64,000 bases of DNA from assembly GCA_029067085.1 (NCBI GenBank), contig JAIEFE010000017.1, positions 124,001 through 188,000 on the forward strand, in the 5' to 3' direction. Under the pieces are notes generated by a model, which was not told where the DNA came from, searched no databases, and saw nothing but the letters and a program-made list of their open reading frames with translations. Positions 24,636 to 35,622 of the stretch are shown here, piece after piece (the stretch's first letter is position 1; each line of letters starts with the position of its first letter). The DNA comes from Lachnospiraceae bacterium. GTDB lineage: Bacteria; Bacillota; Clostridia; Lachnospirales; Lachnospiraceae. A program made the translations under genes and the position numbers.

Positions 24636-24821
24636 CTGTCTCTTCTTTCTCTTTTCTTACTGCAATTCTAACATTTCGGCTGTTAAATGTAAACCTTCGC
24701 CAATCGGTAATTCGCACCGTATAATTACCATTCACGCAAAACGGAAAAAGGAGCGGCGGAAATGTGATATATAGTATAGATGTATTTTACTGTTTTACAG
24801 TTTGATGAGGAGGCTCGCGTG
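24636..24821. other. Divergent intergenic region, kinase / GGDEF gene
   Basis: About 185 bp. GAGGAGG lies just before the GGDEF start. AT-rich promoter-like sequence is present, and imperfect ACATTT/AAATGT half-sites near 24670-24690 could be LytTR contacts, but no convincing motif stands out. Confidence 0.3.
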
Positions 24822-25676
24822 ATGAGTAAAATATGGGAGTTTTATGAAACAATGGACGAACTTGTCTATGTTTCAGACATTGACAGCCATGAAATGATCT
24901 ATATGAACAAAAAAGCGCTTCTCACCTACGGCTTTCACACGCTCGATGAATTAGCCGGAAAGAAATGCTATGAAGTACTTCAAAATGCTGCCGCTCCCTG
25001 TACCATGTGCAACAATCATGAGCTGAAGCAGGGTTATTTCATCGAACGGCGACAGTATGATCCCACATTGGATCGACAGGTACTGCGCAAGGACACCCTG
25101 ATAACGGAAAACGGAAGACACTATCGCATGACACTTGCTTTTGACATCAATGATCAGGAGCAGCTGAACAGTCTCATCCGGGAATTAGAAGAAATGAGCT
25201 ACCGTGACCAGCTTACCGGTATCGGAAACCGTCATGCCATGAATAAATGCATTGACAATCTGCAGAGAGAACAAAGTCTGGGAATCGTGTACTGCGATAT
25301 AACCGGACTGAAGCAGACGAACGACCAAAAAGGCCATGTATGGGGTGACAAACTGATCATCGATGCCTGCGACTGCCTGCAAAGAAGTTTTGGCGAATAC
25401 AATTTGTTTCGCATCGGCGGCGATGAGCTGTTAGCGCTCTGTAGCTCGATCGACGAGTCGGCCTTGTGGCAGGGTATCGAACAATTAAAGAAAAATCTCA
25501 GAAAAAAATCCGTTCACATGGCGGTAGGAGGTCTTTGGGAACGGAACAGCTTAGGCGGCGTGGACAGACTGATCTCTGCAGCCGAGAAAAGAATGTATCA
25601 GGATAAAGCGGCTTACTATATGAAATACGGATCAGACAGGCGGCACCCGATGGAGACTGTCTCTAGCTGGATGTGA
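24822..25676 (+). CDS. PAS-GGDEF protein, probable diguanylate cyclase
   Basis: 284 residues. An N-terminal PAS domain (MSKIWEFYETMDELVYVSDI, then KKCYEVL and PCTMCNN cysteines) is followed by GGDEF: SYRDQLTGIGNRHAM, DITGLKQTND (metal/GTP region) and RIGGDELLAL. The signature is GGDEL rather than GGDEF, and no RxxD inhibitory site is seen five residues before it. No EAL domain. GAGGAGG precedes adjacent GTG and ATG codons; the ATG is used. The 3' end overlaps the convergent flavodoxin gene by 14 bp. Confidence 0.87.
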   Translation: MSKIWEFYETMDELVYVSDIDSHEMIYMNKKALLTYGFHTLDELAGKKCYEVLQNAAAPCTMCNNHELKQGYFIERRQYDPTLDRQVLRKDTLITENGRHYRMTLAFDINDQEQLNSLIRELEEMSYRDQLTGIGNRHAMNKCIDNLQREQSLGIVYCDITGLKQTNDQKGHVWGDKLIIDACDCLQRSFGEYNLFRIGGDELLALCSSIDESALWQGIEQLKKNLRKKSVHMAVGGLWERNSLGGVDRLISAAEKRMYQDKAAYYMKYGSDRRHPMETVSSWM

Positions 25677-26409
25677 TCTGACATATATTATTTTTGTCAA
25701 GCCATGCCGATACATCAGACGGCATACCGGAACCTCCTGAATATAAAATCGCAAGCCCTTCTCCGATTGTGGAATCAGGTGCCAGCTTTGCAATAGCTGT
25801 CAAACTTTGTCCGAAACGTCCGCCGCCATGAGAACAGAATGGAACAATGGTCTTTCCCGAGAGATCATACTCCTCCAAAAAAGAGGCAATCGGCATGGGG
25901 ATAGATGCCCACCAGTTAGGATAACCCAGAAAAACAATATCATAGTCCTCCATGTTTTCCACATGGTGAAGCAGTTCCGGTCTTGCGTGATCCGCCTTCT
26001 CATCCGCCGCCCTGTCAAGGCATTCATCATAATCGCTGGAATAAGGTTCCGTCACCACAATAGAAAACAGATTTCCACCAATCTCCTCCTGAATCCATCC
26101 TGCCATTTTTGCGGCATTGCCCGGTGGAAGTACGCTTGCGGATGTCGTCGCATCCACATCCACGGCTTCCGGATTTTCCACATATGTGTTTTCCGCCCAT
26201 GTAAAATAAGCAATCAGTATACGGGAATGTTCCTCTTCATCTGCATTGTTGACGGTCTCCGTATCAGAACGATCCGCCACATTTTCTATGGGTTCCGTAC
26301 CGGCTATATTGTCCGTTACATCCGATAATTTTTCGTTCCCCCTGCCTGCACACGCCGAAAGGGAAATAACCGCTGCAACGGTAACTATTAATAAAACTGC
26401 CTTCTTCAT
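25663..26409 (-). CDS. Lipoprotein flavodoxin-like protein 1
   Basis: 248 residues. Lipoprotein signal with lipobox LSACAG, a ~50-residue acidic linker, then a flavodoxin domain (ILIAYFTWAENTYVE, where FMN phosphate normally binds at the S/T-rich first loop; DIVFLGYPNWWASIPMPI; VPFCSHGGGRFG). Flavodoxins are normally cytosolic, so a surface-anchored form is notable. Last gene of the ten-gene redox operon, 12 nt after the permease. Paralogue of the gene at 29590. Confidence 0.88.
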   Translation of the reverse strand: MKKAVLLIVTVAAVISLSACAGRGNEKLSDVTDNIAGTEPIENVADRSDTETVNNADEEEHSRILIAYFTWAENTYVENPEAVDVDATTSASVLPPGNAAKMAGWIQEEIGGNLFSIVVTEPYSSDYDECLDRAADEKADHARPELLHHVENMEDYDIVFLGYPNWWASIPMPIASFLEEYDLSGKTIVPFCSHGGGRFGQSLTAIAKLAPDSTIGEGLAILYSGGSGMPSDVSAWLDKNNICQITSS

Positions 26410-26421
26410 CCTGCACCTCCA

Positions 26422-27321
26422 TTAAATCAAAAGATCGACCAACAGACCTGTTGCCAGTGAGAACAGCATCACAAATGCAAGGTACAGCACAAAACGCTTG
26501 ATTCCTAACACAATCTTTAATGCTCCGAGGTTCGTGATCTTTGTCGCCGGTCCAGTGATCATAAATGCCGATGCGGACCCCAAGCTCATGCCGGATGCCA
26601 GCCATTGCTGCAACAGGGGAATCGTTCCTCCGCCACAGGCATACAACGGAACACCCACGGTTGCCGCCATAAGCACCCCGAACCCTTTATTCTCCCCAAA
26701 CAACCTGCCAAACGCTTCCGCGGGAACATATCTCTGAAACAGTGCTGACAGCAATACCCCAAATAAAAACCATGGTCCGGTAGCCCTGATATTTCGTCCT
26801 AAATTTTTCAGAAATCTTAAAATCAGATTGGGATCTATATCCCTGCTTTTGGATTCCTCAAACCCTTTGAAGTCAAAATAGCCTTTTCCTTTATAAAAAT
26901 ACCGGACACACAGCCCTGCCCCGATCCCACATAAAAAACAGGAAACAAACCGTATTGCCATTGCTGTGCTCCCAAGCGCTGCACTATAGATCAACAGTTG
27001 GGGATTTAACAGGATGGAACTCATCATAAAAGCGGCAAGCATATCGTCTTTCATCCCTTTCTGCGAAAAGGATGCCGCAATGGGAATCGTCCCGTACATA
27101 CACAAAGGCGAGGCAATTCCAAGCAGGCTTGCAGGAATCAGCCCCAGCGCACCCAGCTTTTTATCCCCAAGGGCGGAAAATGCAGAATGTATCTTATTTT
27201 TTCCAAATACAGAAATGGCAGAGCCAAGCACCATGCCCAGCACCCAATACCGGAATATCTGTTGCAGTTGAACGGTGAAATAGTACCACACATAGACAAA
27301 TTCCCGCCTTAAAATATCCAT
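26422..27321 (-). CDS. UPF0718/YraQ-type permease
   Basis: 299 residues, about eight TM segments. Family signatures: GIASPLCMYGTIPIA, a region of SxxxLNPQL, VPLYACGGGTIPLLQQ and ITGPATKITNLGAL. Related permeases have been linked to organoarsenical or metal(loid) export (ArsP), but CxxC-type arsenic ligands are not evident and the substrate is unknown. Operon member between the DUF362 and flavodoxin lipoproteins. Confidence 0.85.
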   Translation of the reverse strand: MDILRREFVYVWYYFTVQLQQIFRYWVLGMVLGSAISVFGKNKIHSAFSALGDKKLGALGLIPASLLGIASPLCMYGTIPIAASFSQKGMKDDMLAAFMMSSILLNPQLLIYSAALGSTAMAIRFVSCFLCGIGAGLCVRYFYKGKGYFDFKGFEESKSRDIDPNLILRFLKNLGRNIRATGPWFLFGVLLSALFQRYVPAEAFGRLFGENKGFGVLMAATVGVPLYACGGGTIPLLQQWLASGMSLGSASAFMITGPATKITNLGALKIVLGIKRFVLYLAFVMLFSLATGLLVDLLI

Positions 27322-27359
27322 CTGGAATCACCCCGTTCTATTTTGTGCATCATAAAAAA

Positions 27360-28469
27360 CTACTCGTCAATGGACACTAACCGGTATTCCCTGCTTCCGA
27401 GTCCGATGTCCTGTGCGTGTTCCAATGTATGCAGTCCATTCCGGGATTCGATCCTCTTTACCAGAGAATCGCCATCCTCCGCCCCATACACCAAATCAAC
27501 ACAGGCCTGATCTACTGCCACTGGGTCAAAGGATGCCAAAATTCCAATATCATGCATATCCGGCTCAGAAGGGTTCCCGTCGCAGTCGCAGTCCACAGAC
27601 AGGCGGTTCATCACATTGATATAAAGGATATTCCCATTCAGGTAATCCACTACCGACTTTCCTGCTTCTGCCATAGACTCAAGGAATGCATCCTGATCGC
27701 CGCCCCACATGCTGCCGCCGGTTCCTCCGCTGTGGATATGAGCTTTTCCTTCGGAAGATGCAATGCCGATGGATATATTCTTTATCGCTCCGCCAAATCC
27801 TGCCATGGCATGACCCTTAAAATGGGACAAAACAACATAATAATCATAATTGGCAAAATTCGCCCCTACATAATTCTCTGTCAGGTTGCTTCCCCCTGTG
27901 ACAGGCAGTGTCATGGAGCCGTTCTCGTCCATGATATCCACTGTGGCAATGGCTGTATAACCATGATCCTCCGCAACCTGATAGTGCATGGCTGTATTGG
28001 ATCTGGAACCTCCGTAAGCCGTATTGCACTCAACTATGCTTGCATTCAGGGACTGCACCAGTTCCCCGATCAGGTCCGTCCGCAGATAATTGCTTCCGGG
28101 TTCTCCCGTACTCAACTTTACCGCAATGCTGCCTTCCGGTGATGCTCCCAATGCCTTATAGATAGCCATCAACCCATTCGAGCTGATATCTGTGGTCATA
28201 TAAACCACCGGTGCTCCTGTATTTTCCGAAGTAGTGTTTTCCGCGCTGCCGGAATCCTGCACATCTGCATTCTCCTGTGACGATGCCGCCTGCCCGCTGT
28301 CCTGTGTAGTGGACTGGCGGTTTTCTTCTGTCTGACTGGATTCTACTGTCTGCCCATTTCCCTGTGCCTGATCTCCCGCATTCCGGTTTCCTTCGGTCTG
28401 TCCGCAGCCCGCCATACCAAATACTACCATTCCCATCGCCAAAAATAGCGCTAAAAGCTTTCTTCTCAT
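27360..28469 (-). CDS. DUF362 domain lipoprotein
   Basis: About 369 residues. Start ATG at 28469 follows GAGGAG by 7 nt; lipobox GMAGC. A Gln/Ser/Asn-rich linker (residues ~25-85) precedes a DUF362 domain: VVYMTTDISSNG, VLSHFKGHAMAGFGGAIKN, and VDCDCDGNPSEPDMHDIG near the C-terminus. DUF362 proteins are often iron-sulfur associated; here only the DCDC cysteines are obvious and no ferredoxin motif is seen. Surface location fits the other lipoproteins of the operon. Confidence 0.85.
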   Translation of the reverse strand: MRRKLLALFLAMGMVVFGMAGCGQTEGNRNAGDQAQGNGQTVESSQTEENRQSTTQDSGQAASSQENADVQDSGSAENTTSENTGAPVVYMTTDISSNGLMAIYKALGASPEGSIAVKLSTGEPGSNYLRTDLIGELVQSLNASIVECNTAYGGSRSNTAMHYQVAEDHGYTAIATVDIMDENGSMTLPVTGGSNLTENYVGANFANYDYYVVLSHFKGHAMAGFGGAIKNISIGIASSEGKAHIHSGGTGGSMWGGDQDAFLESMAEAGKSVVDYLNGNILYINVMNRLSVDCDCDGNPSEPDMHDIGILASFDPVAVDQACVDLVYGAEDGDSLVKRIESRNGLHTLEHAQDIGLGSREYRLVSIDE

Positions 28470-28470
28470 T

Positions 28471-28803
28471 TTAATTCTCCTCATTCCATACTTCCTTTGC
28501 CAGGCGGAACACGGCCCATCCTTTTGGCCAGCCCACATACATGGTAGCATGGGTTATGATCGCGGCAATTTCTTCCCTTGTCACCCCATGATTTTTCGCA
28601 TTCTGCAAATGGTAGGTCAGGGAAGAATCTGTAATGCCGGATGCCATCAGCGACACCACCGTAATGATGCACTTTGTCTTTACGGAAAGCGTATCTTCAT
28701 TCCATACCTCTCCAAACAGCACATCATCATTCAGATGTGCAAACATCGGTGCAAATTCTCCAAGGCTCTCCCGTCCTGCGGTCTGTACTATTTTTTCACT
28801 CAT
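28471..28803 (-). CDS. Carboxymuconolactone decarboxylase family protein
   Basis: 110 residues, all-helical CMD/AhpD-like fold: TLSVKTKCIITVVSLMASG, YHLQNAKNHGVTREEIAAII, MYVGWPKGW. It lacks the CxxC of AhpD peroxidases and so belongs with the gamma-CMD type, whose substrates are mostly unknown. The stop lies one base before the DUF362 start. Such small CMD proteins recur beside flavodoxin and aldo/keto reductase genes in clostridia. Confidence 0.87.
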   Translation of the reverse strand: MSEKIVQTAGRESLGEFAPMFAHLNDDVLFGEVWNEDTLSVKTKCIITVVSLMASGITDSSLTYHLQNAKNHGVTREEIAAIITHATMYVGWPKGWAVFRLAKEVWNEEN

Positions 28804-28888
28804 GTCTGTTATCCTCCATTTCTGTTTTTACAAACGTTCAACCCATGATTTAAGCGATTCCTTCGTCTGTTTTCCATTCAAATTTCAA

Positions 28889-29593
28889 CTATGCCATTCT
28901 GCTCTTTTCCTTCTCTCTGTTCCCCGCTGCAAGTCTTACAATTCCTTTCTGCACATAATAGCCTGCAAAAATCCATGTTCCCATCATCGCAATATGCTCC
29001 GCAAATACCTGTGCGGCGCTTTTCTCATAATCAAAGAATACAAACTCCACTTTCACAAACATATAGGAAAAGATATCTGCGTGCCGGAAACAGACTGCCC
29101 CATATACGGCAATTGCCACAGCCAGGAAACGTGCAATCCATGCAAGAACCGGTCTCCTTTTCCCTCCTGCGAGTTTATGGAACGTCCCTACCATTATGCC
29201 CCAGTGGAGTCCTATATGCAGGCTCATCAGAACAAAGCCCCAATAGGATGCAGACAGATGCATCACTCTGGCCAATGCCATCCCTCTTGTGATCGGCAGG
29301 AAATCAAATACATGCCGCGACAACACCACCCCGCTATATGCAAGGGAAAGCATTGCTGCCAGAAGCGCCGCGTTCAACACTGTGCTAATGATCCTTTGCG
29401 GCATATATTTTCCTTTCAGCAGGCTCTTATACCATTGGACATTCAGGATGTGGTGTATCAGGAACAGCACAAGCATTACCGTCCCAAATATCTCATGCAG
29501 ATAATCCCCCACAACCTGATAAGCCATAAGGAGCAGAAGCACGACAGACATCAGTATGTCTATGGCAATCTTCCATCTCATTTTTGTATTCAT
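28889..29593 (-). CDS. DUF4405 membrane protein, cytochrome b-like
   Basis: 234 residues with five to six TM helices. Histidines lie inside or at the edge of helices (DYLHEIFG, IHHILNVQW, LSRHVFDF, RVMHLSASYWG, LHIGLHWG), a pattern expected for haem ligands in cytochrome b-type proteins. Haem binding is inference. It overlaps the lipoprotein flavodoxin by ATGA, suggesting the two form an electron-transfer pair across the membrane. Confidence 0.82.
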   Translation of the reverse strand: MNTKMRWKIAIDILMSVVLLLLMAYQVVGDYLHEIFGTVMLVLFLIHHILNVQWYKSLLKGKYMPQRIISTVLNAALLAAMLSLAYSGVVLSRHVFDFLPITRGMALARVMHLSASYWGFVLMSLHIGLHWGIMVGTFHKLAGGKRRPVLAWIARFLAVAIAVYGAVCFRHADIFSYMFVKVEFVFFDYEKSAAQVFAEHIAMMGTWIFAGYYVQKGIVRLAAGNREKEKSRMA

Positions 29594-30327
29594 AGATCCA
29601 ATCCTTCAATCCATGCCTGAACATCAGCTTCGGAAACTCCGCCGCCAAACCTCATGCCTTCCAGCCACTGTGCGCCGCCTGTCAGTTCCTCCAAGTTCCT
29701 TCCGCTGGAACCAAGCCCGCTGCTGGATGAGGTGCAGAATGGGATCAGTGTTTTGCCTTTAAAAGAATAGCTTTCCATAAATGTACTCACAATCCTCGGT
29801 GCCTCACCCCACCAAATCGGATAGCCTATGAACACGATATCATACTGTTCCATATCCTCCACTGCACCGTTAATCTCAGGCCGGCATGATCTGTCATTCA
29901 TCTCAATGGTGCTGCGGCTGCTGTCATCATGCCAGTCCAGATCTGCGTTCGTATAAGGTTCCAGGGGTACGATTTCATAAATATCCGCACCCATATTTCC
30001 CGCTATGATCTCAGCAACTCCTTTGGTCGTCCCTGTCGCTGAAAAATACGCTACTAAGACTTTGCCCCCTTCTTTATCCGGAGCATCCTGACTATCGGTT
30101 GCATCTGTACTTTCCATTTCTGCCACCGCTGTGTCCTCTGATGGTTCAGGTGTGCTGCCTGTTTCCGACTGGACAGATTCAGTTTCCGCTTCCCCTGTAG
30201 GTACAGGGCTTTGTTCCCTGTCCAAAGTATCCGATGAAGAGTTAGCATTTTGTCCGGAATTTCCGCCGCATGCTGTCAGGGATATTACCATAACTGCCAT
30301 AAGCAGCGCCATAACTGTCCTTTTCAC
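29590..30327 (-). CDS. Lipoprotein flavodoxin-like protein 2
   Basis: About 245 residues. The GTG at 30327 is chosen because AAGGAGG lies 9 nt upstream; the ATG inside the ribosome site is too close. Signal peptide and lipobox SLTACGG, a Ser/Glu/Thr linker, then a flavodoxin domain: LVAYFSATGTTKGVAEII (a clear FMN phosphate loop), DIVFIGYPIWWGEAPRIV, IPFCTSSSSGLG. Better conserved at the FMN loop than the paralogue at 25663. Overlaps the DUF4405 start. Confidence 0.9.
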   Translation of the reverse strand: MKRTVMALLMAVMVISLTACGGNSGQNANSSSDTLDREQSPVPTGEAETESVQSETGSTPEPSEDTAVAEMESTDATDSQDAPDKEGGKVLVAYFSATGTTKGVAEIIAGNMGADIYEIVPLEPYTNADLDWHDDSSRSTIEMNDRSCRPEINGAVEDMEQYDIVFIGYPIWWGEAPRIVSTFMESYSFKGKTLIPFCTSSSSGLGSSGRNLEELTGGAQWLEGMRFGGGVSEADVQAWIEGLDL

Positions 30328-30379
30328 AAGGTTCATCCTCCTTACTTTCACATTTTTTTATTTTCTGGTTTCCGGTGAA

Positions 30380-31393
30380 TCATACATGTTTTCCCTTTGC
30401 GCTCTCAGGCTTATTCTGTGCCATGACTCCTGCCAGTGTGTGGGGCACATACGGCTCCTCCAGATAATGTATTTCATCTTCTGTCAACTCCAATTCCACC
30501 GCTTTTGCTGCTCCTTCAATATGGTGGAACTTTGTTGCACCCACCACAGGTGAGGTTACTTTTGTAAGCAGCCATGCAAGAGATACTTCTGTCATGGTGA
30601 CATCCCTCTTTTCCGCAATTTCCTGTACACGGCGGATGATGACCTCATCCTGCTCCTTTGTTGCATCATATTTAAATTTTGCAAAGCTGTCCTGCTGAAG
30701 CCTCTTGCTGTCCTCTCCCGGTTTTCTGGAAAGCCTGCCGCTTGCCAGCGCACTGTATGGCGTGAGAGCGATATCCTCCTCGTAACAAAAAGGCGCCATC
30801 TCCCGTTCCTCTTCCCGGAAAATCAGGTTATAATGCCCCTGGATGGATACGAACTGCGGGAACCCTTCTTTCTCTGCAAGGGCATTTGCTTTGGCAAGCT
30901 GCCATGCATAACAGTTGGAAATACCGATATAACGCACCTTACCTGCTTTTACTACGTTAGACAATCCTTCCAGAATATCATAGATTGGTGTCTGGTAATC
31001 CCACATATGGTAAATATAGAGGTCAATGTACTCCATACCAAGGTTTTGAAGGCTTTTATTGACCATTTTTTCAATATGCTGCTGTCCGGACACGCCTGTC
31101 TCTATTTCCTCCTGTGTCCTGGGCAGAAACTTTGTGGCAATTATAACCTCATCGCGTTTTGCAAAATCTTTCAGCGCCCGCCCCACATACTGCTCGCTGG
31201 TACCGCTCTGATAAGCAATCGCTGTATCATAAAAATTTACGCCAAGCTCAATGCCCCTCTTAATGATCTCCCGTGAATGCTCCTCATCCAAAGTCCACGA
31301 ATGCTGCCCTTCTCCCGCAGCGCCGAAACCCATGCATCCCATACAGATGCGGGAAACGGTCAAATCTGATTTTCCTAATTTTGTGTATTTCAT
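30380..31393 (-). CDS. Aldo/keto reductase
   Basis: 337 residues, AKR (beta/alpha)8 barrel using NADPH. Catalytic tetrad visible: Asp and Tyr in NFYDTAIAYQSG, Lys in IIATKFLP, His in IYIYHMWDY. Cytosolic. 337 residues resembles the YhdN/AKR11-type and plant-like AKR13 enzymes. Between the lipoprotein flavodoxin and the NAD(P)H:FMN reductase-like gene; substrates may be small carbonyls or quinone-type compounds. Confidence 0.93.
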   Translation of the reverse strand: MKYTKLGKSDLTVSRICMGCMGFGAAGEGQHSWTLDEEHSREIIKRGIELGVNFYDTAIAYQSGTSEQYVGRALKDFAKRDEVIIATKFLPRTQEEIETGVSGQQHIEKMVNKSLQNLGMEYIDLYIYHMWDYQTPIYDILEGLSNVVKAGKVRYIGISNCYAWQLAKANALAEKEGFPQFVSIQGHYNLIFREEEREMAPFCYEEDIALTPYSALASGRLSRKPGEDSKRLQQDSFAKFKYDATKEQDEVIIRRVQEIAEKRDVTMTEVSLAWLLTKVTSPVVGATKFHHIEGAAKAVELELTEDEIHYLEEPYVPHTLAGVMAQNKPESAKGKHV

Positions 31394-31412
31394 ATCCTGC
31401 TCCTTTCCTGCC

Positions 31413-31943
31413 CTATATTAATTTTCCAAGATCATACGCTTCTGTATCATAACGCTTCGGCATCATCCCGACCGTCCCTGCCCCTTTTGCAAGGACCATG
31501 CCCCTGTTCTGGAAAGACAGATAGTCAAAAATGATGTCAAAATGAGTCTTGATGCCTTTCATGACAACTTCATCATCGTTCCATGCCGTAGCGATCAGAG
31601 CCGCTTTCATTCTTTTTCGTGTAATCGCACCGTTTCTTGCATAAAAGCGGTCAATCATCATTTTTAATTGTGCACTCATTCCAAAATAATAAACCGGGGT
31701 TGCAAATACCACAGCATCCGCTGCAAGGAGCTTTTTCAGCACCTCGTTCCCATCATCTTTCTGGACGCAGTCCCCGTTCATACCGCAGCATTCACACCCA
31801 AGGCAGGGATGTATATTGCCGCGAGCACAGTCATAGACTGTTGTCCTATGTCCTGCCTCTTCTGCGCCCTTGATAAATTCTTTTACAAGTGTATTGGAAG
31901 TTCCCTCCCTGTGGGGGCTTCCGCATAAGATCAATATATTCAT
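31413..31943 (-). CDS. Iron-sulfur-flavoprotein-like NADPH-dependent FMN reductase
   Basis: 176 residues. N-terminal flavodoxin-like fold MNILILCGSPHREGTSNTL with FMN phosphate loop, then cysteines C-X2-C-X2-C-X5-C in CLGCECCGMNGDC, the compact motif of iron-sulfur flavoproteins (Isf), then ATPVYYFGMSAQLKMMIDRF. The ATG at 31943 overlaps the TetR stop (ATGA). It could pass electrons from NAD(P)H or a ferredoxin into the chain encoded downstream. Confidence 0.88.
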   Translation of the reverse strand: MNILILCGSPHREGTSNTLVKEFIKGAEEAGHRTTVYDCARGNIHPCLGCECCGMNGDCVQKDDGNEVLKKLLAADAVVFATPVYYFGMSAQLKMMIDRFYARNGAITRKRMKAALIATAWNDDEVVMKGIKTHFDIIFDYLSFQNRGMVLAKGAGTVGMMPKRYDTEAYDLGKLI

Positions 31944-32572
31944 GATTCCTTTACCCCCAGCAGTTTCTTCACACAAGTGTATGTCATCTCATAAATGGAA
32001 AGATATACAAACCCTACATCTGCCTGTTCCATTGCCTCTCTCTGCTTATCTGTCACTACCGTATATGGATAGGCACCATACATGAATGGAAAAAAGGTAT
32101 ATAGAAAGTCCTGTCTTTCATCCTCTGCCATTTCCGGGCAGAATTTTTTCAGCAGCCAGTTCACCGCCTTGATGGACGCTCCATATGCTCTCTTGAATTC
32201 CACCAGCCGCTCCATCCTGCTGTTAGTTTCCATATCATAGTGGTTCATGCTCATGATCTTGAGCAGCAATACCCTTTTATCTACCGATTCTGCCAGAGCT
32301 TTTGCAAGTTCCTCCCTGCTCATTGTTTCGTGCTCCGCCGCCAATCCATCCAATTCCTTTACCCACAGCTCATACTCTTCCTGCAGGATGGCAAGGAAGA
32401 TTTCCTCCTTGGTCTCAAAATAATTATAGATGGATGTGCGGGTAAAAGAAGTTTCCTCCGCTATATCTTTGATCGTGATCTCTTTAAAGCCCTTCGTTTT
32501 GTACAATGACTTACAGGCTGCAATAATTTCCTCTCTCCTGGCATTTGTAAGTTCAATCGATCCCTTTGGCAT
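31940..32572 (-). CDS. TetR/AcrR family regulator
   Basis: 210 residues. HTH: ITIKDIAEETSFTRTSIYNYF. It lies inside the redox operon as its second gene, 12 nt after the flavin reductase, and overlaps the next gene by ATGA. It most probably represses the operon through the twin TGACAC-type sites at 33.2 kb, making an autoregulated unit induced by an electrophile or quinone ligand (inference). Confidence 0.92.
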   Translation of the reverse strand: MPKGSIELTNARREEIIAACKSLYKTKGFKEITIKDIAEETSFTRTSIYNYFETKEEIFLAILQEEYELWVKELDGLAAEHETMSREELAKALAESVDKRVLLLKIMSMNHYDMETNSRMERLVEFKRAYGASIKAVNWLLKKFCPEMAEDERQDFLYTFFPFMYGAYPYTVVTDKQREAMEQADVGFVYLSIYEMTYTCVKKLLGVKES

Positions 32573-32583
32573 AACCTTTCTCC

Positions 32584-33138
32584 CTACTCTTCTGTATTTT
32601 CTTTAAATGACAGACACTTTCCAAGAACGTCCCCGGTTTTTAAGTATTCATAAGTGGGGAATTCAAACAGCACGGGCTTTAAGGTATGGTAATTCACTTT
32701 TCCATCGGCATTCAGATGTTCTTCTTCCACATAGGTGTTATCAATCGTACAGATAAAACTCTCAAATCCCGGCGTGTTGTAAATATCCTCCACGGTACAC
32801 ACCAGTGACAGCGGCGCCTTCGTAATGACCGGCGCTCCGTCATCCCCCTTCTCATATGCAAACAGTTTCGACTTATCCGCTTTTGACCCGCTTACGCTTC
32901 CTGCATAATCCGCTTCCGGCAGGATTCCCTCATCCACCACATTGATGGAAAGTTTTCTGGTCTGTTTGATGATCCCGTTAATAAAGTGCGGTGCCGCAAG
33001 GCTGACGAGAACTCTGTCATGCCCGATGATCCCTACATGGGCCACCAGCGTCCATGTAGGCTTATTTCCATTCATTGCACCGACCACTGTAACAGGCATG
33101 GGGTACAGCGCTAATTGTGAACCGATATTTTTCTTCAT
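32584..33138 (-). CDS. Flavin reductase family protein
   Basis: 184 residues of the FMN-binding split-barrel flavin reductase (FlaRed/NADH:FMN oxidoreductase) family: LYPMPVTVVGAMNGNKPTW, LAAPHFINGIIKQTR, LSINVVDEG. First gene of the operon, directly behind its promoter, with AAGGAGG upstream. Could supply reduced flavin or bind FMN as an oxidoreductase. Confidence 0.9.
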   Translation of the reverse strand: MKKNIGSQLALYPMPVTVVGAMNGNKPTWTLVAHVGIIGHDRVLVSLAAPHFINGIIKQTRKLSINVVDEGILPEADYAGSVSGSKADKSKLFAYEKGDDGAPVITKAPLSLVCTVEDIYNTPGFESFICTIDNTYVEEEHLNADGKVNYHTLKPVLFEFPTYEYLKTGDVLGKCLSFKENTEE

Positions 33139-33170
33139 TTATTTTTACCTCCTTATTTTTTCCTGCATTC

Positions 33171-33220
33171 TGACACCATGTCAGCATCTTTATTATACAC
33201 GCATTCTGACACCGTGTCAA
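33171..33220 (-). promoter_or_regulatory. Consensus promoter with two TetR operators for the redox operon
   Basis: On the minus strand TTGACA (33220-33215), 17 nt, TATAAT (33197-33192): a perfect sigma-A consensus. Palindromes TGACACCGTGTCA (33207-33219, over the -35) and TGACACCATGTCA (33171-33183, downstream of the -10) have centres 36 bp apart, each preceded by GCATTC on the plus strand. Confidence 0.85.
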
Positions 33221-33303: not shown

Positions 33304-33858
33304 TTAAAATAACAGCTTATTTCCCTTCTCACAGATCTCATAGATTTCATCGTACTTTTCTTCTATCAATGGCGTCACCCGCTCTGTCTGGTTCCTCACG
33401 ATCCTTTTATAGAGAAAATACGGGAATATCCATCCCAAAAATCCCGGTACGGCAAGAATGATACACAAAATATAGTTTGGCGACTGCGCTGTCACCGCAA
33501 AGGTGGAGCCTGCCATGAACGCTGTCCCGATCACGCCTAACACAATCCCATACACTGTCGCTGTAGAAGTCTTCTCCCTTTCCAACAGATCTATTTCATT
33601 GACACACGCCTCAAAATTTCTCTCAAGTCTGGTCAATTCCATTTTGTTGACGATCTTACGGTTTCGCTTCAGACGCAGCACTTTTCTCTGCTGCACTGTC
33701 GGATTCCTTCTCTCTCCATTTTCAGGCAGATTTTCATCTAACTCCCACCCAAAACTTTCATACCCATCAAGCAGGAACGAATATCTGCTACCCTCCGTAA
33801 GCAGCTCCTTATACTCATACCCCACAAAATTTCTCTGCTGTCTTTCCATATCACCCAT
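33304..33858 (-). CDS. Membrane protein of unknown function in a two-component operon
   Basis: 184 residues: a charged N-terminal half including LRLKRNRKIVNKMELTRLER, two adjacent TM helices (VYGIVLGVIGTAFMAGSTFA and YILCIILAVPGFLGWIFPYF) and a charged C-terminus with IEEKYDEIYEICEKGNKLLF. Overlaps the kinase gene by 8 bp, so it is co-translated with it. Similar small two-TM proteins follow kinase genes in other clostridia; function unknown, perhaps an accessory to the sensor. Confidence 0.7.
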   Translation of the reverse strand: MGDMERQQRNFVGYEYKELLTEGSRYSFLLDGYESFGWELDENLPENGERRNPTVQQRKVLRLKRNRKIVNKMELTRLERNFEACVNEIDLLEREKTSTATVYGIVLGVIGTAFMAGSTFAVTAQSPNYILCIILAVPGFLGWIFPYFLYKRIVRNQTERVTPLIEEKYDEIYEICEKGNKLLF

Positions 33859-34954
33859 GAATATACACCTCCTGCTCCTGATACATACCAGTCACAGGCA
33901 ACATGACTGTAAAGGTACTCCCCTTCCCTTCCTCGCTGGCAATCTGGATATCCCCATCCATAAGTTCCAACACCCGCTTGACCAGTGCCAGCCCAAGCCC
34001 GTTCCCTTCTTTTGAATGAGAAGTATCACCCTGATAGAATTTATCAAAAATATGTTTCATACTCTCCTGACTCATGCCGCAGCCTGTATCAGAAACAGAA
34101 ACCCTGATATAGTTTTCATCCGATGTCTGAATGACAGTGACGCTGCCGCCCGGTTCCGTAAATTTTATCGCATTGCTTAATAGGTTGTTCCACACCAGTT
34201 CCATAAGGCTTGCATCTGCCCTCACCATTGCCACATCTTCCATTTCTGTTTCCAGTTCAATTTCTTTCTCATCCCACGCATCCTCAAATTGCAGGATACA
34301 CTCACACAACTGCCTGCACACATCATAATCCTCCGCTTCCGGCGTGATCCTTTGGTTTTCCAGCTTGTTCAGTTTCAGTATATTGCCGATCAGGTCTGAA
34401 AGGCGTGTCACAGTGCTCTCAATGGACTCCGCGTATTCTTTTCTCTGCCCGTCTTCTATCTTGTCTGCCCGAAGCAGTTCCGCATAATTCTTTATGATGG
34501 CAATAGGCGTTTTCATCTCATGGGACACATTGGAAACAAAATCCGTTTTCAATGTCTCAATGCTCCCAAGCTCCTCCACCATCTTGTTGAAATCCTTGAT
34601 CATGACATCCACATAATCCATCTTATCTGCCGTATGGAGCGTGGGTATATACACCGAAAAATCTCCTGCCGCCACCTTAGACGTAGCCTCAGCAAGCTGA
34701 TGCATGGGGATCTCATAAGTATTCCTGATCCTGCTCACTGTAAACCATGTAATGGCTGCCGCCACGATTCCCCAATACGCCATAGCCACAGCAGACTGGA
34801 CAACTGCTCCGCACCGGAATCTGTCCATAAGCACCAGCAGTCCGATATGCATCCCTGACATCAGGAATAAAACACCTGTATAAGCCGCAAACAGGGACAA
34901 TATGAATCGTATTTTTTTCATCGTGTTATTATGGCTGACACTTTTCCTTTTCAC
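33851..34954 (-). CDS. Sensor histidine kinase (HAMP-HisKA-HATPase)
   Basis: 367 residues. Two N-terminal TM helices with only a short outer loop, HAMP from ~90 (MHQLAEATSKVAAGDFSVY), phospho-accepting His in FVSNVSHEMKTPIAIIKNY, N-box LVWNNLLSNAIKF, G-boxes SDTGCGMSQ and GNGLGLALVK. A small sensor loop implies intramembrane sensing, as in bacitracin/antimicrobial-peptide sensors. Overlaps the regulator gene by ATGA. Confidence 0.94.
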   Translation of the reverse strand: MKRKSVSHNNTMKKIRFILSLFAAYTGVLFLMSGMHIGLLVLMDRFRCGAVVQSAVAMAYWGIVAAAITWFTVSRIRNTYEIPMHQLAEATSKVAAGDFSVYIPTLHTADKMDYVDVMIKDFNKMVEELGSIETLKTDFVSNVSHEMKTPIAIIKNYAELLRADKIEDGQRKEYAESIESTVTRLSDLIGNILKLNKLENQRITPEAEDYDVCRQLCECILQFEDAWDEKEIELETEMEDVAMVRADASLMELVWNNLLSNAIKFTEPGGSVTVIQTSDENYIRVSVSDTGCGMSQESMKHIFDKFYQGDTSHSKEGNGLGLALVKRVLELMDGDIQIASEEGKGSTFTVMLPVTGMYQEQEVYIHG

Positions 34955-35622
34955 AGCAACACCGCCTTATAACCCAGCCCTCTTACCGTCACAATCTGAA
35001 ACCCGTCACAGGCCGATAATTTATCCCGCAGTTTTGTCACATACACATCCACCGCCCGTAAGCTGGTATCACTGTCCACACCCCAGAACTCATCCATAAG
35101 CTGCGCTCTTGAAAAGGTCTTTTTAGGATATGACAGCAGTTTATAAATAATATTAAATTCTCTTGTAGTAAGACTGACCTCTTCACCATTTATTTCCGCG
35201 CTCATGCCATCTGCATCCAGCACCAGATTCCCCACAATGATCTTCCTCTCCATTTCGATATTCGCCCTGCGCAGAAGCGCCCTGACGCGAAGCAGTAATT
35301 CGTCCAGTTCAATGGGCTTTACCATGTAATCATCTATCCCAAGCTGGAACCCTTTCTGCTTGGAAGGCAAGTCATCTTTCGCCGACATGAACAGGATGGG
35401 AATCGTTTTATTCACCTGTCTGACTATCCGCGCGAACTCAAACCCGTCAATTTCCGGCATCATAATGTCGGAAATGATCAGCTCGTACAGATTGTTATAC
35501 ATTTCATCATAGGCATCTTTAGCATTCAGACATCCTGTTGCATGAAACCCGCTGTCATTTAAATAAGTACACACGATCTGGTTCAATTTTGCATCATCTT
35601 CCACTACAAGAATATTTATCAT
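34951..35622 (-). CDS. OmpR/PhoB family response regulator
   Basis: 223 residues: receiver with phospho-acceptor Asp in LIISDIMMPE, Lys in DYMVKPIELDEL; winged helix with LTTREFNIIYKLLSYPKK, RAVDVYVTKLRDKL and VRGLGYKAVL. Partner of the kinase at 33851 (ATGA overlap). Confidence 0.95.
   Translation of the reverse strand: MINILVVEDDAKLNQIVCTYLNDSGFHATGCLNAKDAYDEMYNNLYELIISDIMMPEIDGFEFARIVRQVNKTIPILFMSAKDDLPSKQKGFQLGIDDYMVKPIELDELLLRVRALLRRANIEMERKIIVGNLVLDADGMSAEINGEEVSLTTREFNIIYKLLSYPKKTFSRAQLMDEFWGVDSDTSLRAVDVYVTKLRDKLSACDGFQIVTVRGLGYKAVLL

Follow-up and report, generated by a model that had tools for sequence, protein, structure and literature searches.

A ten-gene operon of a Lachnospiraceae bacterium encoding a DUF4405 membrane cytochrome and two differing predicted lipoprotein flavodoxins

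The window analysed here (G000:C9:124001-188000, the whole stretch of 64,000 nucleotides) comes from the genome, 83.6% complete, of a gut bacterium of the Lachnospiraceae and has an operon of ten consecutive genes on its minus strand (33138..25663). These code, in order, for a flavin reductase, a TetR regulator, an Isf-like FMN reductase, an aldo/keto reductase (AKR), a flavodoxin (Fld1), a DUF4405 membrane protein, a carboxymuconolactone-decarboxylase-like protein (CMD), a DUF362 protein, an ArsP_1 permease and a second flavodoxin (Fld2). Intergenic gaps range from -4 (TetR/FMN_red) to 85 nt (DUF4405/CMD), and all ten products match a Pfam family over its cut-off (Flavin_Reduct, TetR_N, FMN_red, Aldo_ket_red, Flavodoxin_4, DUF4405, CMD, DUF362, ArsP_1 and Flavodoxin_4, respectively), confirming the one-strand operon, with its order and spacing, that was proposed in an earlier note on this DNA. 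Judging from their sequences, the operon pairs one flavodoxin of each of two kinds, Fld2 being of the ApbE-type and Fld1 having an ordinary loop though it is also predicted to be exported. The features of the locus are as follows.

32584..33138, minus strand: flavin reductase (PF01613; Pfam), possible donor to the membrane cytochrome
31940..32572, minus strand: TetR-family regulator (TetR_N, TetR_C_34; Pfam), putatively binding the operators given below
31413..31943, minus strand: NADPH-dependent FMN reductase, Isf-like (Pfam PF03358), with CX2CX2CX5C
30380..31393, minus strand: aldo/keto reductase (Pfam)
29590..30327, minus strand: Fld1, predicted lipoprotein of the Flavodoxin_4 family; FMN loop short and canonical (SATGTTKG), ApbE motif absent (Pfam and sequence)
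28889..29593, minus strand: DUF4405 membrane cytochrome b (Pfam; invariant His; haem b reported only for a relative, PMC11334425)
28471..28803, minus strand: CMD (Pfam)
27360..28469, minus strand: DUF362 predicted lipoprotein, possibly of LarA-like fold, with invariant Cys148, Cys294 and Cys296 (DCDC) (Pfam, alignment and model)
26422..27321, minus strand: ArsP_1 permease, the usual neighbour of DUF362 in these loci (Pfam)
25663..26409, minus strand: Fld2, predicted lipoprotein of the Flavodoxin_4 family; an insert that follows strand 1 and precedes helix 1 contains an ApbE-type motif (Pfam, sequence and model)
26134..26154, minus strand: DATTSAS (residues 86-92 of Fld2), predicted motif for flavinylation at Ser92
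25908..25929, minus strand: recombination junction in Fld2 (LGYPNWW), between a motif-class half and a short-loop-class half
33171..33220, minus strand: operon promoter with operators (TTGACA 33220-33215, 17 bp, TATAAT 33197-33192)
33207-33219 and 33171-33183, minus strand: two palindromic 13-bp operators, 36 bp apart

Genes of the operon and their conservation

The start of the DUF362 gene is ATG 28469 (369 aa), the longest-frame start at 28550 having been rejected, and that of FMN_red is ATG 31943. Fld1 probably starts at GTG 30327, with AAGGAGG upstream, and its gene overlaps that of DUF4405. The FMN_red protein belongs to PF03358 (FMN_red/flavodoxin fold) and has the cysteine motif CLGCECCGMNGDC, in line with the CX2CX2C...C of the Isf iron-sulfur flavoproteins. 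By eye, a signal peptide and a lipobox cysteine are present in Fld1 (LTAC), DUF362 (MAGC) and Fld2 (LSAC), making these predicted lipoproteins; the lipoboxes claimed previously for both flavodoxins thus stand as predicted export signals. An Rfam scan of the window gave no match at gathering score.

For nine operon genes (all but Fld2), comparison with one to three of the loci L085, L086 and L087 gives dN/dS values of 0.05-0.27. Fld2 lies outside this comparison, with no such gene found by profile after ArsP in L085 and L086 and with L087 ending there. Most of the gene set recurs in L085, L086, L102, L106 and L117: the genes of L085 from flavin reductase through ArsP stand in the window order, with two additions, one AKR-like gene and one flavodoxin gene, and Fld2 is absent there; L106 and L117 have the majority of the set in differing orders. 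Because of the low dN/dS of nine genes and the recurrence of most of the set in relatives, the operon is more than a chance arrangement; it is real, and its set recurs in other Lachnospiraceae. The nearest named loci (among the best 80 of 424) are metagenome-assembled genomes labelled Lachnospiraceae, Acetatifactor or Clostridiaceae, with DUF4405 proteins 86-91% identical to that of the window.

The membrane cytochrome and two kinds of exported flavodoxin

The DUF4405 protein of the window matches PF14358 with 44.3 bits (cut-off 26.7). This family was assigned to the cytochrome b family from sequence in 2015 (PMC5898192), and Huang et al. (2024; PMC11334425) report six helices and bound haem b for DUF4405, the latter demonstrated for one member, in agreement with the previous description of a His-rich, cytochrome-b-like membrane protein. 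His 33, 47, 112, 126 and 130 are invariant in 26 aligned sequences (alignment A1, rows chosen from 46 matches). Hydropathy calls five helices in the window protein, with a sixth visible by eye, and six in 71 of 101 unfused relatives. Of 150 family genomes, 36 have PF14358, the source genome among them; a phylum-wide scan of 299 genomes gives 92 with a match at E 0.001 and 69 above cut-off. The DUF4405 proteins of L054 (8710-9891) and L066 (7888-9465) have long C-terminal parts with CTGCGKQC-type cysteine motifs, repeated in L054, which are possible extra metal or Fe-S carriers.

Two sets of DUF4405 loci were compared: 45 loci besides that of the window, annotated with own profiles around the Pfam matches, and the best 80 of 424 named loci, close to the window's DUF4405. 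A flavodoxin gene lies within 5 kb of DUF4405, or is fused to it, in 34 of the 45 loci of the first set, where 0.92 would be expected by random placement (calculated from Pfam counts and rounded genome sizes); within 5 kb it is on the same strand in every case. Same-strand flavodoxins within 8 kb occur in 33/45 and 69/80 loci, so that, for the flavodoxin and DUF4405 genes, the conserved co-occurrence for which the earlier note had asked is present. Also seen within 8 kb of DUF4405 in L084-L163 are LysR (41/80) and MerR (26) regulators, MATE-like transporters (26, by eye) and lipoprotein esterase-like genes (25).

Altogether 205 flavodoxin domains were found, of which 194 within 8 kb of DUF4405 were classified (five lack a recognisable first strand and six lie farther away), with export and transmembrane calls made by regular expression and hydropathy. 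A lipobox or membrane helix accompanies 148 domains, 62 with the ApbE-type motif in the first loop and 79 with a short plain loop; the other seven have a long loop without the motif there, L095, L101 and L104 showing it further along. The motif occurs in 0/37 domains called cytosolic versus 62/148 extracytosolic ones (p 4e-8), where at least five of the 37 rows (L049, L039, L103, L106, L114) are misassigned, their first strand being mis-set and their true loops unscored; these five were dropped from the tree, and the remaining 32 cytosolic rows are without the motif. Nine of the 194 domains are ambiguous in location or at a contig edge, and control windows elsewhere in the flavodoxin domain match the motif in 3/338 cases. 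About half of the exported flavodoxins linked to DUF4405 would thus have no flavinylation site.

The two kinds differ in their relation to apbE (ApbE profile matches under 60 bits were excluded from the neighbourhood counts). A motif flavodoxin is present in 17/22 loci with apbE within 8 kb versus 29/103 without (p 3.8e-5), and a plain exported flavodoxin in 9/22 versus 45/103 (p 1.0). Since the two sets overlap (L053 = L149, L050 = L105), the tests were repeated after deduplication at 97% and 70% DUF4405 identity, giving p 2e-4 and 1.5e-4 for the motif kind and 1.0 and 0.38 for the plain kind; all of these tests ignore kinship. That the plain exported flavodoxins do not track ApbE fits non-covalent FMN, and 74 of the 79 short loops fit a loose FMN phosphate-loop pattern. 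Exported flavodoxin genes within 60 nt of DUF4405 number 30 for the plain and 12 for the motif kind (not deduplicated). Alignment A4 consists of 27 of the 33 listed motif lipoproteins, the two of the window and three plain ones, and the invariance of its lipobox cysteine is circular.

Fld1 matches Flavodoxin_4 with 197.2 bits and lacks the ApbE motif throughout its sequence, which places it with the plain kind. Fld2 matches with 78.5 bits (cut-off 24), and the position of its motif corresponds to that in the flavinylated Flavodoxin_4 proteins of PMC11334425, whose flavinylated serine belongs to an insert separating strand 1 from helix 1. Around the motif (block 81-90) the pLDDT of the Fld2 model is only 61; the model matches the FMN flavodoxins 4ici and 3klb with TM 0.83 and 0.81 of target length. 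The earlier note was right in naming two flavodoxins and overlooked that Fld2 has an ApbE flavinylation motif and Fld1 has not. A single apbE was found, elsewhere in the source genome, and its product probably flavinylates Fld2 in trans. With somewhat less assurance, Fld1 may be taken to hold non-covalent FMN outside the cell.

Fld2, judged by identity along its length, is a recombinant of the motif and plain kinds. Its residues 61-160 are identical to the motif-class protein of L155 at 87/100 positions, and residues 161-240 match the plain FGE-class protein of L093 at 19, 19, 14 and 16 positions per 20, the switch lying at LGYPNWW. Another record (P0122) has the same make-up (97/100 and 59/75) and P0136-P0138 look alike, while P0123-P0135 resemble Fld2 chiefly over the first half. 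Both parent kinds adjoin each other after ArsP in L093, and a deletion between such neighbours would yield Fld2. In the flavodoxin tree the classes are clustered yet need 5 to 7 changes each; Fld2 is misplaced there, which led to the finding of the chimera, and no claim of origin is drawn from the tree.

Both kinds also occur within single proteins. L134 codes for a lipoprotein with a plain and then a motif domain, L103 for a protein of 921 aa that begins with a signal-like stretch and has plain-motif-plain domains, and L151, which ends near a contig end, for half a flavodoxin domain followed by a motif domain. With the L134 protein as query, a sample biased towards the mixed query, both kinds are found in 97 of the best 120 protein clusters (52 motif-plain-motif, 38 plain-motif); these fall into 9 groups at 70% identity, and 94/97 have a lipobox or signal-like N-terminus. 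This shows that the mixing of domains of apparently covalent type and plain domains in one protein is common. P0335 possesses three S-layer stretches and two flavodoxins. L206 (8278-11451) has a 1058-aa frame with three S-layer stretches, three flavodoxins and an FGE-sulfatase domain, and P0289 is a three-flavodoxin protein present in 378 contigs, with an N-terminus that is dockerin-like by eye, although Pfam gave no dockerin match.

DUF4405, FGE-sulfatase and Flavodoxin_4 are joined in one protein in L046, L058 and L060 (confirmed by Pfam), and all three domains are present in 109 of the best 120 matches to L060 (L060 included). A fusion in L068 is without the FGE part, and that of L117 was judged by own profiles and by eye. 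Hydropathy indicates seven helices in L046, L058, L068 and L117, six in L060 (one seems missed) and five in L071, the added helix implying that the flavodoxin is moved to the outer face. A cytosolic location of the flavodoxins was rejected on account of the predicted lipoboxes and these extra-helix fusions. Fusions of DUF362 with a short-loop flavodoxin occur in L142 (a lipoprotein, by profiles only), L200 and L204, both orders being represented.

The DUF362-ArsP arm and the operon promoter

DUF362 occurs within 8 kb of DUF4405 in 6/45 and 16/80 loci, with ArsP alongside in 5/6 and 15/16 of them, and Cys148, Cys294 and Cys296 are kept in 21/21 DUF362 rows. The DUF362 model (mean pLDDT 75.6) has LarA-type structures at Foldseek ranks 1-16 with low TM values of only 0.28-0.44; such matches are expected, as DUF362 shares Pfam clan CL0471 with the LarA superfamily (PMC11770544). 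A sequence search of the PDB gave no DUF362 relative. LarC (PF01969), the nickel-insertion enzyme, was not found in the source genome, which is 83.6% complete (larB and larE were not searched for), which makes a nickel LarA cofactor unlikely for this protein; a standard LarA enzyme was rejected for this reason. ArsP is nearest to the SO_0444 Cu/Zn efflux protein and SaoE, with scores far under their cut-offs. The fusions of DUF362 to flavodoxins make it a likely partner of the latter, a point missed in the earlier reading of the operon, and the chances that it is the next carrier or enzyme in the chain appear even.

The palindrome TGACACGGTGTCA overlaps the -35 box of the operon promoter and a second, TGACATGGTGTCA, lies downstream of the -10 box. 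In 2.04 Mb of retrieved loci, where chance would give about 1.7 copies of TGACA-N3-TGTCA, there are 21; the pattern is present in 9 of 12 loci with a TetR of more than 200 bits; it is missing in L037, L046 and L085, the contig of L085 beginning at the first operon gene. Pairs spaced 36 bp apart are found in L060, L063, L086, L102, L106 and L115, and the same promoter-operator layout precedes TetR or flavin reductase genes in relatives. The source genome has three occurrences, two of them in the window promoter. Since a reversed control pattern occurs six times, what is telling is solely the operator pair in its promoter setting. The complete operator-promoter pattern occurs once in this genome, and the regulator seems to be local in action. 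The TetR control suggested previously thereby gains a conserved double operator that covers the promoter and presumably belongs to the TetR of the operon. The operator also lies before a cytosolic flavodoxin gene in L060 (6405-6453) and before DUF4405 itself in L152 (922-934), no TetR being found in either stretch. Profiles likewise gave no such TetR in the retrieved part of L092 (Schaedlerella arabinosiphila).

A possible electron relay and its alternatives

Trans-membrane electron transfer to exported flavodoxins is likely. Rather probable, though less so, is the fuller reading preferred here, an inducible relay from a cytosolic flavin reductase through haem b to surface flavodoxins of mixed covalent and non-covalent kind, and perhaps on to DUF362. 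TetR would control the whole relay. Electrons from NAD(P)H would be transferred to flavin by cytosolic reductases, and DUF4405 would carry them across the membrane on haem b, which has been demonstrated for a homologue. The lipid-anchored acceptors on the outer face would be Fld1, with non-covalent FMN, and Fld2, with FMN fixed by ApbE in trans, and both would probably pass electrons to the DUF362 lipoprotein, partnered by the ArsP permease. As final acceptor, an electrophilic or quinone-like compound, able also to release TetR, would be likeliest. A flavin reductase is plausible as donor to DUF4405, in the manner of Fre, which feeds MsrQ (PMC11031084). The results above that favour the relay are the linkage of flavodoxin to DUF4405, the extra-helix fusions, the restriction of the motif to extracytosolic flavodoxins and its association with apbE, the proteins of mixed kind, the DUF362-flavodoxin fusions, the single apbE, the operators and the Fld2 model.

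Several observations count against this relay. No flavodoxin was found near 11 of the 45 DUF4405 loci, some of which are on short contigs, and a same-strand flavin reductase lies within 8 kb in only 5/45 and 10/80 loci, so it would not be an obligatory donor. No ApbE domain was detected by Pfam among the ten operon proteins (published cases usually have apbE in the cluster, which a substrate does not need), the genome has two FMN_bind proteins as other possible ApbE clients, and the 29 motif-bearing loci without apbE nearby have been noted. Two of the six DUF362 loci (L036, L041) are without a flavodoxin found, and the DUF362 of L036 lacks an export signal. The view taken in PMC11334425, so far as drawn on here, is that unflavinylated Flavodoxin_4 is cytosolic and that export is tied to flavinylation. 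That view, and the possible escape of non-covalent FMN outside, would favour Fld1-type lipoproteins without FMN, serving a structural or regulatory role. This is improbable: the FMN phosphate loop is kept, the Fld1 domain aligns with 4ici, 3klb and 4j8p, Fld1 is under purifying selection (dN/dS 0.19-0.27), and the query-biased L134 sample has both kinds in most of its proteins.

A possible but rather unlikely alternative is detoxification of electrophiles or quinones, in which surface flavodoxins reduce the toxin, AKR, CMD and FMN_red clear what enters, TetR acts as sensor and DUF362 and ArsP form a separate arm. In keeping with it are the AKR genes (23/45 and 47/80 loci) and CMD genes (9/45 and 18/80) that share the strand of DUF4405 and lie no more than 8 kb away, as are the recurrence nearby of Fe-ADH, MATE-like transporters (by eye) and LysR or MerR regulators and the single strong promoter under two operators; the DUF362-flavodoxin fusions point instead to DUF362 as a member of the chain. 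Less likely again is a role in metal redox or handling, with the chain reducing a metal at a DUF362 centre and the permease moving it, to which the pairing of DUF362 with ArsP, the nearest relatives of ArsP, the invariant DCDC and Cys148 and the LarA-like fold would be suited; the missing LarC speaks against a LarA cofactor. The similar haem layouts of MsrQ and DUF4405 (PMC11334425) and the feeding of MsrQ by Fre (PMC11031084) bring to mind envelope repair of the MsrPQ type, with electrons mending oxidised surface proteins, but no sulfoxide reductase family was found by Pfam among the ten operon proteins and this explanation is very improbable.

The preferred relay has a published core. Huang et al. 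(PMC11334425) describe DUF4405 genes in clusters that include apbE and a flavinylated Flavodoxin_4. The idea that a cytochrome supplies exported flavodoxins is therefore already published, which had escaped the original proposal of electron flow to surface flavodoxins. Their clusters share with the window the membrane cytochrome family, the flavodoxin family and the ApbE-motif insert connecting strand 1 with helix 1, and Desulfosporosinus lacus, the source of one of their substrates, is locus L129 here. Unlike those clusters, as described in the part of that paper used here, the window has an operon without apbE, an exported insert-free flavodoxin, a DUF362-ArsP arm and a double operator, and its relatives have mixed tandem proteins and DUF4405-FGE-flavodoxin or DUF362-flavodoxin fusions. 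Novel are the differing lipoprotein flavodoxins, the tracking of the motif kind by apbE, the mixed proteins and fusions, the two-operator promoter and the recombinant Fld2. No open-licence PMC title or abstract start among those searched mentions plain flavodoxins that are exported, tandem flavodoxins of mixed kind or fusions of DUF4405, FGE and flavodoxin, and within that scope the mixed exported proteins appear to be new.

MsrQ-MsrP with Fre also combines a cytosolic flavin reductase, a haem-b membrane protein and an extracytosolic acceptor (PMC11031084, PMC11334425); here, unlike in that system, the acceptors are flavodoxins, and the window reductase belongs to PF01613 whereas Fre is of the FNR family. 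Multi-flavinylated proteins likewise have several FMN sites per exported protein and share a PF07833 domain with L204 (PMC8238504, PMC11334425), but are defined by FMN-binding domains with flavinylation sites, in contrast to the mixture of motif and motif-free flavodoxin domains seen here. The LarA superfamily of nickel-pincer racemases resembles DUF362 in clan (PMC11770544) and Foldseek ranking and differs in that DUF362 has low TM values and is extracytosolic, in a genome where LarC was not found.

The exported flavodoxins that lack the site, and the many proteins that pair one domain of each kind, open a direct test of what covalent flavin attachment is for; DUF362 gains a likely place in an electron chain. 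It may tentatively be proposed, with the chances somewhat against it, that extracellular flavodoxin wires of gut clostridia deliberately mix covalent and exchangeable FMN, are fed by haem b and deliver to a LarA-fold DUF362 metalloprotein; if so, the sites with exchangeable FMN could also pick up flavin from outside the cell.

On either side of the operon lie possible sensory genes. A GGDEF-like sensor gene (by eye; 24780-25676, plus strand) is convergent with Fld2, the two overlapping by 14 nt at the 3' end of Fld2. A histidine kinase and response regulator (by eye; 33851-35622, minus strand) sit directly upstream of the operon, and a very similar histidine kinase is also found upstream of the L106 operon.

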